Below, piece after piece: positions 43,374 to 51,690 of a stretch of DNA of 64,000 bases. Numbering within the stretch: the first letter of the stretch is position 1; the number at the start of each line of letters is the position of its first letter. The notes under the pieces are model-generated. The model worked only from the letters and a program-made list of their open reading frames with translations. It was not told the DNA's origin and did no database searches. Source of the stretch: Gammaproteobacteria bacterium. GTDB taxonomy: Bacteria > Pseudomonadota > Gammaproteobacteria > Xanthomonadales > Wenzhouxiangellaceae. The stretch is taken from contig JAJFKY010000001.1 of assembly GCA_021772975.1 (NCBI GenBank), positions 1 through 64,000 on the forward strand, read 5' to 3'. The position numbers and the translations under genes were made by a program.

Positions 43374-43409
43374 GTTCACATGAGAACAAATAATAGTTCA
43401 CCTATGAAC
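43374..43409. promoter_or_regulatory. Two MarR operator-like palindromes
   Basis: GTTCACATGAGAAC (43374-43387) and GTTCACCTATGAAC (43396-43409) share GTTC....GAAC symmetry and lie 22 bp apart, about two helical turns. They are embedded in a direct repeat ATAATAGTTCAC. Each contains one of the two candidate marR start codons. Confidence 0.65.
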
Positions 43410-43901
43410 CAAATTCAAGGCGATACCGAACAGCCACATGCGCTGGCAAACATTGCCGGCCTGAGCGACTGGTTGACCGTGGTCAGCACCTATCAGGTAT
43501 GTGAAAAAGTGATGTCCAGACGGCTGATGGAGATTGGCCTGACACTGGCTCAATATGATGTGTTCGCCTCGCTGCTGGTCAAGGACGGTCAGACCCAGCA
43601 GGAAATTGCCGAGCGCAACCTGGTGGCCAAAAGCAACGTTTCCGGAATCCTCAAACGAATGCAGGCCAATAATTGGGTGCAACGCCTGCCGCATCATTCT
43701 GACGCACGCAAGAATCAGGTAAAACTGACCGCCAGCGGCCGGCAACTGGCGTTGCAGGGCGTGGCCATTCAGAAGCAGGTTATTAAAACCATGTGCGATG
43801 CCATTACTGTCCAGGAATCGGCGGCCGCGGCCGACATTTGCCGAAAAATGCGCACTGCGTTACTCAGCAGCACCGACGGTGAGCAAGTGGCCGTCGATTA
43901 A
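43404..43901 (+). CDS. MarR family transcriptional regulator
   Basis: About 165 residues from the ATG at 43404 (MNQIQGDTEQ); an ATG at 43380 would add eight residues, and neither has a clear SD, so the mRNA may be nearly leaderless. The winged helix-turn-helix covers TLAQYDVFASLLVKDGQTQQEIAERNLVAKSNVSGILKRMQANNWVQRLPHHSDARKNQVKLTASG, with the DxR wing of MarR proteins. The ligand is unknown. It lies between a divergent hydrolase and the convergent bufferin operon; the operators suggest control of itself and the hydrolase. Confidence 0.92.
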   Translation: MNQIQGDTEQPHALANIAGLSDWLTVVSTYQVCEKVMSRRLMEIGLTLAQYDVFASLLVKDGQTQQEIAERNLVAKSNVSGILKRMQANNWVQRLPHHSDARKNQVKLTASGRQLALQGVAIQKQVIKTMCDAITVQESAAAADICRKMRTALLSSTDGEQVAVD

Positions 43902-43913
43902 GCAGGGTTTAAA

Positions 43914-44753
43914 TCAGTCCAACCGGCCCGGGTCCTTATTGGACAGTTGGTTAATACCGGCAAGCAGCCCTTCAGCACACCACTGGGTTAAATAATCAAC
44001 CATCCGCTGACCAATCCGCGGCGCCGGATAATATCCGGTCAGGCTGGCGCACAGCCAGGCGAAATCCCGCCCTGCCAGCATAGCCTCCAGTAAACCATGC
44101 TCGTGGCCGGTCAGTGAGCGGAACTGCGTCAAGCGGTCACGATCACGCCACACCAGCCAGGCTTGCGCGTCCGCAGCGTCCAGCTGGGCGGCGGCCGGTG
44201 GCGGGCGCTCCGCCTTGATGGCCTGCCAGCTCGCCACGCTGTTCCAGTGCGCGCTGAAAAACTGCACGCTGGGATGTAACCGCAGCTGCATGCCCGGCCA
44301 CTGTTCAGCCGGCAGGGCCTGTACTTCCGAAAAATCCACGCGGCGCTGATCAGGCGCATCAAAACTGTCCAGCAGGATATTCTCAAACGCGGCAATCTCA
44401 GCCAGTATCGGATGGTCCGAGAAGGGTTTGTTGCCGCGCAGGTAAGCAGGCAGAGCGCGGCAAAAATACCGTAGCGACCGCACCTGCGAAGGGTGTTGCC
44501 CAAGATAGCCCTGCCATAACCTGGCAAACCACTCATCACCCAGATAAGTACACAGCACCGGGTGGTCGGTTTCGATCACTTTCCGTAAGCGCACCCGATA
44601 AGCGTTGGCATAGATTTCCAGGCGTTGTGCCGGGCTGATGCTGCCTTGCTCCACCACCTGATCCTGCAGCTCATGGGCTTCGTTTGATGGCTGCCGCTGG
44701 AGGTAATCCAAAAACTGATGCTGCAACCGGGCAAGCGAAACAGGCGCTGACAT
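43914..44753 (-). CDS. bufC: HvfC/BufC-type (DUF2063) RiPP maturase partner
   Basis: A 279-residue protein of the DUF2063 (HvfC/BufC N-terminal domain) family. The start LARLQHQFLDYLQ and SPAQRLEIYANAYRVRLRKVIETDHPVLCTYLGDEWFARLWQGYLGQHPS are the family core; these proteins bind the RiPP precursor and hand it to the MNIO enzyme. A C-terminal winged-helix-like region follows (LTGHEHGLLEAMLAGRDFAWLCAS). The start is 10 bp past the maturase stop, so the genes are a transcription unit. Family knowledge is from bufferin and methanobactin-type systems; partner binding here is inferred. Confidence 0.88.
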   Translation of the reverse strand: MSAPVSLARLQHQFLDYLQRQPSNEAHELQDQVVEQGSISPAQRLEIYANAYRVRLRKVIETDHPVLCTYLGDEWFARLWQGYLGQHPSQVRSLRYFCRALPAYLRGNKPFSDHPILAEIAAFENILLDSFDAPDQRRVDFSEVQALPAEQWPGMQLRLHPSVQFFSAHWNSVASWQAIKAERPPPAAAQLDAADAQAWLVWRDRDRLTQFRSLTGHEHGLLEAMLAGRDFAWLCASLTGYYPAPRIGQRMVDYLTQWCAEGLLAGINQLSNKDPGRLD

Positions 44754-44763
44754 AAACGTTTAA

Positions 44764-45654
44764 CTAAGCTGCTCTGGTGACGACCGAGCGGCTGTCCAGT
44801 TCGGGAAAAATCTCCACCGCCAGTTGCCTGGCCTGCTGTAACTCGGTATATAGATTCGCAAAGGGAGGAATGTGGTCGTCACGTTCCAGCAGTGTGCTGA
44901 CCGGGCCAAAGCGTTGCAGCGCACGCTGATACAGCTGCCAGACGGGATCAGGTACCGCCTGATCATGGGTGTCCACCACATAATCCCCATGATCAGTATG
45001 CCCGGCCAGATGAAATTGACGTACCCGGGCGGGATCAACGCCATGCAGATAGTCGAGTGGGTCAAAAGCATGATTGCGGGCGCTGACATACACATTGTTG
45101 AGATCAAATAACATCAGCGCATCAGCCCGCTCCACCACCTCACGATAAAACGCCCACTCGGTCATCTCAGATTGCTGATAAGTCAGGTAGCTGGAAACAT
45201 TTTCCAGCAGTAATTGCCGGCCCAGAAAATCCTGCACCTGACTGATACGGTCCACTACATGCGCGATGGTTTGGTCATCGTAGGGTAGCGGTAACAGGTC
45301 ATGACTGTTAACGCCACCGGCAATAGTGAAACACAGATGATCGGATATCCACTCCGGCTGCACATCGTTGGCCAGCGTTTTGAGCTGTCTGAGGTAATCC
45401 CAGTCCAGCGGATCGGTGCTGCCGATGGACAATGACACACCATGCATCACCACTGGATAATGTTCGCGGATACTGGTGAGGTAATGGCGGGGCTTGCCGC
45501 CCGCCACCATGAAGTTTTCAGAAATGACTTCGAACCAGTCCACCGCCGGGCGATGCTCCAGCACATACTGGAAATGCACCGTCCGCAGGCCCAGTCCAAA
45601 ACCTAGAAACGGACGCTCCAGCGGTTCTGTCCGTTCACTGTGTATGTTATCCAT
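44764..45654 (-). CDS. bufB: MNIO family (DUF692) bufferin maturase
   Basis: About 296 residues from the ATG at 45654; the track adds one TTG codon. This multinuclear non-heme iron oxidase family converts precursor cysteines to thiooxazole-type or oxazolone-type groups using oxygen. The opening FLGFGLGLRTVHFQYVLEHRPAVDWFEVISENFM, then VVMHGVSLSIG, WISDHLCFT, LLLENVSSYL, LMLFDLNNVYVSARN, QFHLAGHTDHGDYVVDTHDQ and TLLERDDHIPP show the conserved His, Asp and Glu iron ligands, so it should be active. It lies between the precursor gene and the BufC-type gene on the same strand. Confidence 0.95.
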   Translation of the reverse strand: MDNIHSERTEPLERPFLGFGLGLRTVHFQYVLEHRPAVDWFEVISENFMVAGGKPRHYLTSIREHYPVVMHGVSLSIGSTDPLDWDYLRQLKTLANDVQPEWISDHLCFTIAGGVNSHDLLPLPYDDQTIAHVVDRISQVQDFLGRQLLLENVSSYLTYQQSEMTEWAFYREVVERADALMLFDLNNVYVSARNHAFDPLDYLHGVDPARVRQFHLAGHTDHGDYVVDTHDQAVPDPVWQLYQRALQRFGPVSTLLERDDHIPPFANLYTELQQARQLAVEIFPELDSRSVVTRAA

Positions 45655-45691
45655 CAACGCCTAACGGTCCAGACTGCTCACTACTCACCAA

Positions 45692-45744: not shown

Positions 45745-46203
45745 TCAGGGACCAACCTTGCCGCCCACATCAGCACAGGCTTTAGCACCCATGGCAACAA
45801 ATCCGGTACCTTTGCAGGAACCCTGACCGGCACAGGCATGTTCGGCCGTGGCGCAGTCATTGTGTCCACCGCAGACATTCACGCCATAGCAATGAATCAG
45901 ATCAGCCTTGGCCACGCTGCCTCGCCATTCATCACTGACTTCACCGCCGATATCGGCGCAGGCCTTGGATGGCATGCCTACAAATCCGGTGCCTTTGCAG
46001 GAACCCTGACCGGCACAGGCATGCTCGGCTGAGGCACAGTCGTTGTGACCGCCACAGGTATTAACGCCGTAGCAATGAACCAGATCCGTGCTGTCTGAAT
46101 CAACTGCCGTGGCGCCCACCGCATCGGACTGGTTGCTGGCGCAACCGGCGGCCATCATAGCCAACGCGACGCCCGAAAATGCGGGTGTGATTACATGTTT
46201 CAT
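45745..46203 (-). CDS. bufA: Bufferin-type (BufA2-like) RiPP metallophore precursor with two core units
   Basis: A 152-residue precursor from the ATG at 46203 with GGAG upstream (the track start adds 42 unlikely residues). Signal-like residues [21 protein letters not shown] end in a plausible lipobox (AAGC, Cys21). Then come two units 61 residues apart, [20 protein letters not shown] and [20 protein letters not shown], each with [12 protein letters not shown] and a later KAC, six Cys per unit, 12 in all. BufA2-type bufferins I know of have one such unit; family members are periplasmic copper-binding peptides modified by MNIO enzymes. The DNA of the units shares identical runs (CATGCCTGTGCCGGTCAGGG), so the duplication is recent. 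Lipidation, metal and modification pattern are inference. Confidence 0.88.
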
Positions 46204-47936: not shown

Positions 47937-49476
47937 TTAGGACTTCGCCATCACTGTCCCGCTGACGCTGGTCTGATTATTGTCCTGATCAGGATCGTAA
48001 GTACCAGAAGATACGCCGACGGCGGTGCTGATTGCACCCATGCTATTAGCCCTGGTATTGATATTGATAGTCACTGAACCTGACGAGGCCAGCGCGGTTC
48101 CACTGCAACTGACCTGCTGGCCGGTGTGATTGCAGCTGATGCCCGCGCCAGCCCGGACCGCCAGGATGGACAGCCTGGCTGGCAGCGTGACGCTGACCAC
48201 ATAATCAGCAGCGTCATCCGGGCCGTCGTTATAAACATCGACCTTATAGTTCAGAACATTACCGACAATCACCTGCTGAGTGGAGGGGGTAAGGTTGACG
48301 CTCAGGTCACTACTGAAAGGTTCTACCTGCATGCTAAGCACCGACCAGTTATTGTCTGACACCGGATCGTTACTGCCGGCGTTGACCTCAACCCTGTTGG
48401 TGAATACGCCATCGGTATTCGGGGTAACCGTGATTTCAGCTGAAGCCTTGGCGCCGCTGGCCAGGGAACTGGCGATACAGGCAATCTGATTGACGATTCT
48501 GGCGCAATTGACACCTGGACCAGGGTTGATCGAATTAATGCTCAACTCAACCGGCACAATGTCCGTAATCACCAGATTGGCGGCTTGATCAGGGCCGTTA
48601 TTGCTCACTTCAATGGTGTACGTGAGTGGTTCACCAATAATAACCGGGCTGCGGGTTGCATCTAAGCCTACCGATAAATCCGCGCTGACGGATTCCGCGC
48701 AATCGGTGACTGCCGCGCTGCTTCTGCCGAAAGCCACATCTCCGCTCAACTCGATATCAAATACAGAGACATCGAATACCACCCGCAAGGCAGTGGTGAC
48801 AATCCGTAACTCATCCTGGCCGTTGCCGGTTATGATCTGCTCATTCAGCACAATCATGGTGCCCGGCCAGCCCAGCGGATCGAGATCGATCACGGTATTG
48901 GGTTCCGGGTCTTCCGGCAGCGCCATGACATTGTCATCAATGCTGACTTCAGCATTAATTAATGGTGCTGGATGCACTGGCCTGCAAATCGCCGCAACTG
49001 CCGGTAATGATTGATTCAGAGTTAACACTGCCGGCATCCACGAAGGTACCCGAACCCGGGCTATCGATAACCGCCGTCATGACATGTACGTCTTGCGCCT
49101 CACCCAAGCTGCTGGCGGTCAGAGTAGAGTCATCAAAGTTAACCATACCGGTCAGACTTCCGGATTCGACGATCACGATATCGGACAGATTGATAGCCAC
49201 TCCCTCCGCGCTCTCCTCCAATGGACCGTAACTGGCAATTCCCTGACTGTTCACCGCCGGCGCCGGCGCAAACTGCCCGTACTCGGAACCACCGGATAAT
49301 ATTTGCAGGTGAATATTAACTTCCCCGCCGTAACCACTGGTATAGGCTGTCTGCGCCCAACCGGCAGTGGCCGCGTAGCAACACAACATAGCGATCAGTA
49401 AAGTAACGACAGCATGACGTGATGAAACCCTTGCATAACCCCAGGGGATCACTTTTGAATGATGAAATGCTTTCAT
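47937..49476 (-). pseudogene. Secreted DUF11-repeat protein broken by a 4-bp duplication
   Basis: Two overlapping ORFs (48955-49563 and 47937-49037) together align over their length with the intact paralog at 49941-51506. The first part begins MKAFHHSKVIPWG at 49476 with AGGAG, has a signal peptide ending AGWAQ and stops at SCGDLQASASSTIN; the second continues INAEVSIDDNVMAL...LDPLGWPGT. At 48954-48963 the sequence ATTAATTAAT holds an extra 4 bp; removing one unit restores a frame reading SSTINAEVSIDDN, as in the paralog (SSIVNGIVNIDG). The second ORF has two DUF11 domains (TYTIEVSNNGPDQAANLVITD and NYKVDVYNDGPDDAADYVV). It would have been a secreted adhesin-like protein. An assembly error is possible. 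Confidence 0.85.
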
Positions 49477-49940
49477 CAGGTACTCCTTTACAACCAAAAA
49501 TTGCAGTGACATCAGTGTCACTGATATGTGTGATGTGAAAACTGTCTGATGGCCCCTTCTCATTAAGAAACCAGAGTCGATAGATTCTGGTTGTTTTTGA
49601 TGCAGGCAATTTCAGCACCGGCACACACACCCTTAGCGTCAAGGTTGACGCTTAATGCGACTTTAGTCCTATTGCTCTGATAAAGCAATAGATTTGAAAA
49701 CAATTTAATGGTCGCGCGGATCAGGCCTGGCAGCCGATTTTTGAGCTCGGCGGATGACCTGAAACGGTGCTGAAATGCATCATCGCAGGGTTTGTCTGCG
49801 CGACATCCGAGCTTGCAATGCCGCCGACACAGCCGGGCTGCTGATTGATTTCAAGCACCTCGCAAACGACACCCGGACAGCCAGAGCTGCCCGGGAATTA
49901 TGCTATCGGCTTAACTTAATGACCGGCACGTACCGGATCA
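49477..49940. other. Intergenic region between the DUF11 paralogs
   Basis: About 460 bp. It holds the leader of the broken paralog, including hairpins AGCGTCAA/TTGACGCT (49634-49651) and ATTGCT/AGCAAT (near 49671-49689), and the shared element at 49661. The rest, near the end of the downstream paralog, holds no gene I can support; the ORF at 49775-49984 has no SD. Confidence 0.5.
49661..49690 (-). promoter_or_regulatory. Shared upstream element of DUF11 genes, copy 1
   Basis: Plus-strand AGTCCTATTGCTCTGATAAA..GCAA closely matches copy 2 (AGGCCTATAGTTGGGATAAAGCAA). Both lie 185 bp upstream of their gene start. Likely a promoter or activator site kept after gene duplication. Confidence 0.5.
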
Positions 49941-51506
49941 CTATGTACCCGGAACAGCGCCCCTGCGCCCCAGACCAAAGCTGATGTTGCTGCTGACACT
50001 GGCCTGATTATTACTGACATCAGAATCCGGCGTGGCTGAAGTAACACTGGCGGTATTGGTCACCATGCCGATGCTGTCCGCCCGGGTATTGATGATCACC
50101 GTCACCACCTCACCGGCCGGCAACGCCGCTCCACTGCAGCTCACCTGCTGACCGAACTGGCTGCAATCTACCCCCGCAGCGGCGTTGATCGAGACAATGC
50201 TCAACTGCTCGGGCAGCACATCATCGATCACATATGCGACCGCCTCAGCAGGCCCGGTATTCTCAACCTGAATGGTGTAGTTGAGCGCCGCGCCCACACT
50301 GACGCCGCCATCGGACGCGCTCAGGCTTAGACTCAGATCGGCCTCATCAGGCAGAACTTCCGTGCTGACAACCGCCACATTATTACTGCCGTCCGGGTCA
50401 CTGCTCTCGGCATACGCTTCAACACTGTTGCTGATAGTCCCGGGCGCTTGCGGAATAACCGATAGCGTCACATTAGCGGTATCGCCGACCTCCAACAGTT
50501 CAGCCACACAGATCACCTGCTGCGTAATCTGGGCACAGTTAAGCCCTGCTGCTGGTTCAATCGATGCGATGCTCAGTGTGTCATCCAGGGCATCGGTTAT
50601 GACCAGGTTAATCGCCGGATCGGGGCCTGAATTGGTGACCTCAATGCGGTATTCCAGAGCTTGCCCCACCACCACTGAATCGGCGGAAGCCACCTGGTTT
50701 AAGGCCAGATCGGCAACGCCCGGTTCCAGGCAATCAGTCACCCTGGCTGTACTGCTGCCGAAAATGACATCGCCGCTGAGACTGGCGCCCGGCTGGGCTA
50801 TGTTGAATCTGATACGCATGGCATTAACGATTACCCGCATTTCACCCAGGCTATTCTGAGTAATGGTCTGCTCGTTAAGGGTAACCACCGTGCCGGCCCA
50901 GCCCAGCAGGCCAAGATCGAGCCTGGTATTGGGTGATGGATTCTGCGGCAGATTGATCAGCACGCCATCAATATTGACAATGCCATTGACAATGCTGCTG
51001 ACCGGATTGGCCACCAGCGAACCACAACTGCCGAATATCAGAGCCTCAGAACTGACGCTGTCAGCCACTATGAAAGTACCGTCGTTGAAGCTGTCCACCA
51101 GTGCGGTACTGATGAATATATTGTCAGCCTGACCTATACCGCTGACGCGCCCGGCGCTCTGGTCATAGCTAACCGAACCATGCAGACTGCCCGATTCCAC
51201 TATCGCCAGTTCGGATAGATCAATAGCCACGCCGGCAGCACTATCCTGCAACGGGCCATAATCAGACTGGCCTTGTCCGGAAACCACCGGGGCCGGCAGA
51301 AAAACACCCTGCTGGGAACCGCCGGGTCCTAACTCCAGCCGGATATTAACTTCCGCCCCGCTGGCCCGGCTGAAGGCCGTATCTGCCCAGCCTGGTGTGG
51401 CCGCGCAGGTATACAACAAGATCAGAGCGGTAGAGAAAATTACGAAGCGTGGTGCATTCCTTATGCACAGAAAAACGGACAACATTGAAGAATCAAATGC
51501 TTTCAT
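49941..51506 (-). CDS. Secreted protein with two DUF11 domains
   Basis: About 521 residues from the ATG at 51506 (MKAFDSSMLSVFLC), where GGAG lies 6 nt upstream exactly as in the paralog; the ATG at 51509 is closer than ideal. A signal peptide ends near AATPGWA. An N-terminal domain (residues 45-290) of unknown type, shared with the broken paralog, contains AEVNIRLELGPGGSQQG and LLGWAGTVVTLNEQ. Two DUF11 (beta-sandwich, conserved-repeat) domains follow: LEYRIEVTNSGPDPAINLVITD and LNYTIQVENTGPAEAVAYVIDD. DUF11 units are common in large cell-surface proteins. The end is FGLGRRGAVPGT, with no sorting signal I recognise. Function unknown. Confidence 0.85.
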   Translation of the reverse strand: MKAFDSSMLSVFLCIRNAPRFVIFSTALILLYTCAATPGWADTAFSRASGAEVNIRLELGPGGSQQGVFLPAPVVSGQGQSDYGPLQDSAAGVAIDLSELAIVESGSLHGSVSYDQSAGRVSGIGQADNIFISTALVDSFNDGTFIVADSVSSEALIFGSCGSLVANPVSSIVNGIVNIDGVLINLPQNPSPNTRLDLGLLGWAGTVVTLNEQTITQNSLGEMRVIVNAMRIRFNIAQPGASLSGDVIFGSSTARVTDCLEPGVADLALNQVASADSVVVGQALEYRIEVTNSGPDPAINLVITDALDDTLSIASIEPAAGLNCAQITQQVICVAELLEVGDTANVTLSVIPQAPGTISNSVEAYAESSDPDGSNNVAVVSTEVLPDEADLSLSLSASDGGVSVGAALNYTIQVENTGPAEAVAYVIDDVLPEQLSIVSINAAAGVDCSQFGQQVSCSGAALPAGEVVTVIINTRADSIGMVTNTASVTSATPDSDVSNNQASVSSNISFGLGRRGAVPGT

Positions 51507-51690
51507 CATGTACTCCTTTACATGTCCGGCGGCAGGCCTATGACTGCCGCCATTTTTCGCAGCGCTGGCCAATGGCTGAACATTCCTTTATCCAGCCGGG
51601 ATCAGACAGTTGATGCGCTGATCCCTTATTACAGGCACGTTACAGGCCAGCACCCTGATGTACACCGTAGAGCGGCGCACATAATATATA

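Follow-up and report, generated by a model that had tools for sequence, protein, structure and literature searches.

The window, by which we mean the whole 64,000-nucleotide stretch of DNA analyzed here, encodes a bufferin precursor with two complete six-cysteine units at the head of a bufABC operon. We consider it very probable that this operon is of the known Buf2 (12-Cys) type, with a product that would be modified in both units, exported and copper-sequestering, and with a two-unit form that would go back to one old origin followed by occasional conversion between the units. An earlier note on this DNA had observed the two units accurately; the form is a known one, and it is neither rare nor recent in the way that the note had claimed.

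The two-unit precursor and its operon

The precursor gene, bufA, comes first in a compact minus-strand operon and is followed downstream by bufB, which encodes an MNIO maturase, and bufC, which encodes a DUF2063 protein as partner:

45745–46203, minus strand: bufA, two-unit Buf2 (12-Cys) bufferin precursor of 152 aa with a predicted lipoprotein-type signal peptide (NF050166 and open reading frame)
45944–46086, minus strand: DNA repeat copy over unit 1, the N-terminal six-Cys unit (repeat search, 82% identical to the unit 2 copy)
45761–45903, minus strand: DNA repeat copy over unit 2, the C-terminal six-Cys unit (repeat search, reference copy)
44764–45657, minus strand: bufB, MNIO bufferin maturase with the ERDD motif of the Cys-Lys type (NF050167, 373.2 bits; PF05114, 372.5 bits; motif)
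43914–44753, minus strand: bufC, DUF2063 partner protein (PF09836, 66.7 bits against a cut-off of 27.2)

The bufA reading frame runs on the minus strand from an ATG at 46203 to 45745 and comprises 152 codons plus a stop. Its product matches NF050166, the NCBIfam BufA2 family, in two stretches with 131.9 bits (cut-off 60), which upholds its identification as a BufA2 bufferin precursor. The two six-Cys units start 61 aa (183 nt) apart, both retain SCKG and all six cysteines, and their DNA is 82% identical over 143 nt in a repeat search, far above chance. The product has 13 cysteines in total: the 12 of the units, and one in the lipobox that the earlier count had missed. By sequence pattern, the predicted signal peptide ends in a lipobox, MAAG/C, that fits the relaxed lipobox pattern and has Ala instead of Leu at −3.

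Features of Buf2/BufA2 precursors include 6 or 12 conserved cysteines, an N-terminal Sec or lipoprotein signal, and adjacent MNIO (BufB) and DUF2063 (BufC) genes. The window's precursor has 12 unit cysteines, a putative lipoprotein signal judged by its lipobox, and both neighbors; it contains no EGKCG-like repeats and so is not of the HvfA/oxazolin (EGKCG) type. BufB matches the NF050167 equivalog family over its full length, confirming that an intact MNIO adjoins the precursor, and the bufC product scores under the HvfC equivalog cut-off. At the catalytic motif, BufB reads ERDD, versus ERDF in a second MNIO of the same genome, whose gene adjoins that of an EGSCG-repeat precursor. In MNIOs of the Cys-Lys type, the Asp that follows the catalytic Asp has been modeled as contacting the substrate Lys (PMC13097082).

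A promoter and terminator scan of the window locus returned nothing beyond chance. We rejected a MarR gene (43380–43901, plus strand) as the operon's regulator, since it and bufC are arranged tail to tail; among related loci, a MarR match occurs only at that of a congener (L009). DoxX was likewise rejected as a fourth core gene: all DoxX matches of the window's own genome lie on other contigs, and of 63 two-unit loci only 7 have a DoxX-like frame nearby. Elsewhere in the window, a secreted repeat protein gene that looks DUF11-like (47937–49563, minus strand) is apparently split by a frameshift near 48955–49037, and an intact-looking paralogue lies at 49941–51572 on the same strand.

An AlphaFold2 model built on a 59-sequence alignment (mean pLDDT 69.8, pTM 0.60) predicts a strand-helix element once per unit, with strands at residues 74–77 and 135–138 and helices at 79–84 and 140–145. 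A sequence search found no solved structures related to the precursor, and a Foldseek search with this medium-confidence model found no fold relatives.

Two-unit precursors in the literature and among relatives

The earlier note held that BufA2-type precursors carry a single unit, which is wrong. A 2025 survey of the MNIO landscape, which names the family Buf2 (earlier Buf_6/12Cys), reports six conserved cysteines in 90% of precursors and 12 in the remaining ~10%, lipoprotein signals in about 16%, and an AlphaFold2 model of a 12-Cys Buf2 consisting of duplicated six-Cys domains; WP_077285100, from Cognaticolwellia aestuarii, is among the Buf2 proteins whose models it shows (PMC12452194). The two-unit precursor of the window is a published, ordinary form, and the claim of rarity fails.

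This 12-Cys type, exemplified by WP_077285100, likewise has duplicated six-Cys domains, a signal peptide, and neighboring MNIO and DUF2063 genes, and the window's precursor differs from it in sequence detail only. We also recovered a two-unit precursor of C. aestuarii (L068) and aligned it with the window's. Both units of the window's precursor read CGGHNDC, where most other 12-Cys precursors read CKGHNDC. The single-unit Buf2 precursors of Caulobacter (L084, L086 and L088) share the unit motif CYGVNTCKGTSDC..CKG..CKG and the downstream bufB and bufC, but have one unit with six cysteines and no lipobox. The window's gene adds one more 12-Cys bufferin, and alone changes nothing in existing knowledge.

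Across an even sample of the class, comprising 369 genomes, 67 have a BufA2 match above the NF050166 cut-off. Whole-unit two-unit genes occur in only two of these, the window's own (G000) and G198; G402 and G413 have internal expansions instead of a whole-unit duplication. By its own standard, the earlier note would have been refuted had two-unit precursors been the common form, which they are not across the class (2/67 genomes). A search of BufA2 homologues for multi-unit forms, combining a similarity search with the window's protein and a genome search, yielded 66 distinct two-unit precursors; since these loci were gathered mostly through similarity to the window, the sample is uneven. They come from many families, with Shewanella, Pseudoalteromonas, Microbulbifer, Marinobacterium, Colwellia, Endozoicomonas and Marinicella represented, and the two-unit form is common to many marine bacteria.

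The architecture of these precursors is strongly shared. The unit spacing is 61 aa in 64 of the 66, a conserved linker (DxWxG....ADLxH) recurs among them, and all 12 unit cysteines are invariant across 59 aligned sequences. The bufB gene adjoins every two-unit gene (66/66) and bufC all but one (65/66). A lipobox is present in 40/66 two-unit versus 7/36 single-unit precursors of this uneven sample, and is absent from the three Microbulbifer forms and from the majority of two-unit forms in Shewanella. We rejected an assembly duplication as unlikely: about 20% of bases differ between the window's two copies, and a separate genome of the window's genus carries the same two-unit gene.

Other arrangements occur in the family. 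Two BufA2-family precursors with 10 and 13 cysteines (L126:2278–2664, minus strand, and L127:2292–2756, plus strand, respectively) look like internal expansions of short CKG/CK segments, not whole-unit duplications, and their genes adjoin other BufA2-like precursor genes. Single-unit bufA2-like genes stand in tandem at five loci (L073, L075, L127, L129 and L130), some pairs having one member with and one without a lipobox. Fusion of such tandem genes may have given rise to two-unit genes.

Age of the duplication and the identical tract

When 107 BufB proteins were placed in a tree, the 65 that belong to two-unit clusters grouped in one clade with an SH-aLRT of 89, under the tool's starred level of 95, and the unit-count labels change once on this tree versus a mean of 33 when shuffled. 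Fixed spacing and maturases in one clade are what a single origin of the 12-Cys subtype would predict, and the maturase tree supports shared ancestry of the two-unit form. Units 1 and 2 also differ by position, most clearly at unit position 36, which is Ser/Thr in one and Ala/Glu in the other. A tree of the units themselves, at 44 columns too short to resolve, shows no clean split between unit 1 and unit 2 (20 and 18 changes). Because of the shared spacing and linker, the single maturase clade and the position-specific unit residues, these sequences are best read as products of one old duplication. They suggest that 12-Cys precursors make up a single old and widely shared lineage with its own maturase clade, not a set of scattered recent duplications.

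The earlier note had instead deduced a recent in-frame duplication from long identical runs between the two copies. One such run is real, an unbroken 32-nt tract, and the plural runs reduce mainly to it. Longest-run permutation tests between units gave low values in several lineages, and since this test leaves clustered amino-acid conservation uncontrolled, we added a count of synonymous codons. Synonymous sites are nearly saturated between the window's genome and its congener, with 182/393 same-residue codons identical in hslU (171 expected) and 58/125 in bufA (54 expected). Between units 1 and 2 of the window, identical codons stand at 27 of 41 same-residue positions, where saturation would give 18.2 (P 0.003), and much of this excess sits in the 32-nt tract. 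The tract and the codon excess are what would speak for a tandem duplication within this lineage, which we nonetheless regard as highly improbable: the same form, spacing and linker recur in 66 precursors of many families, their maturases form one clade, the units carry unit-specific residues, and the copies, differing at ~20% of bases, look nearly saturated outside the tract. Recent duplication as stated is refuted, and the tract is better read as local gene conversion between the units, or as codon-level constraint, than as a trace of recent whole-unit duplication.

Proposed function of the two units

Buf1-family bufferins bear thiooxazoles derived from Cys and retain copper in the periplasm. 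For Buf2 of Caulobacter, preliminary published data indicate a function similar to Buf1, with equal mass loss per Cys and absorbance at 305 nm. By analogy, the window's bufA product is most likely a lipid-anchored periplasmic copper bufferin with MNIO-made thiooxazoles on both units. The precursor would be synthesized with a Sec/lipoprotein signal, and cytoplasmic BufB, aided by BufC, would oxidize cysteines of both units (at Cys-Lys sites such as SCKG) to 5-thiooxazoles. The modified product would then be exported, with the lipobox probably providing a membrane anchor facing the periplasm, where it would sequester excess copper. The two-unit form itself probably dates from a single ancient event in a gene of an ancestral gammaproteobacterium, and would since have been retained with occasional conversion between the units.

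Among the 66 two-unit precursors, 10 have one unit that deviates from the CKG motif following the fifth Cys (such as CEG, CNG, CHG or CKA in unit 1 beside CKG in unit 2), and 54 of 66 have KG in both units by strict count. Such departures would fit a precursor in which one unit alone is modified and copper-loaded and the other serves as a structural or spacer domain. We think this improbable for the window, where both units retain SCKG and six cysteines; moreover, the 12 cysteines are invariant across 59 relatives, and the MNIO modifies every repeat of EGKCG-type precursors (PMC13097082, PMC12538549). It is also unlikely that selection for a division of labor keeps the units together, with domains modified or copper-loaded differently and gene conversion keeping the metal-site segment alike; we raise this because of the position-specific unit residues and the loss of the Cys-Lys site from one unit in some lineages. 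As to the ligand, we saw no copper gene beside the window's bufABC, and MerC-bufferin fusions hint at other metals in some relatives. A product mainly handling another metal, or redox or envelope stress, is nevertheless improbable too, given that the characterized bufferins, including Caulobacter Buf2, act on copper. The two-unit lineage offers a natural set for asking if a second unit increases the capacity for copper or the strength of its binding.

The EGKCG captophorins (oxazolin HvfA, fontiphorin FonA and MmrA) resemble the window's system in having many MNIO sites per precursor and an MNIO with a DUF2063 partner, and all their repeats are modified. They differ in carrying five-residue Lys-Cys repeats, versus 61-aa Cys-Lys units in the window, and in their MNIO the catalytic Asp is followed by Phe instead of Asp (PMC13097082). 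The EGKCG-like type is represented in the window's genome by a separate MNIO cluster, apart from bufABC, on contig C20 (36959–38973; locus L120, 1090–3145). It comprises an EGSCG-repeat precursor, with Ser replacing the Lys of EGKCG, an HvfB-type MNIO and an HvfC-type partner, with DoxX directly downstream.
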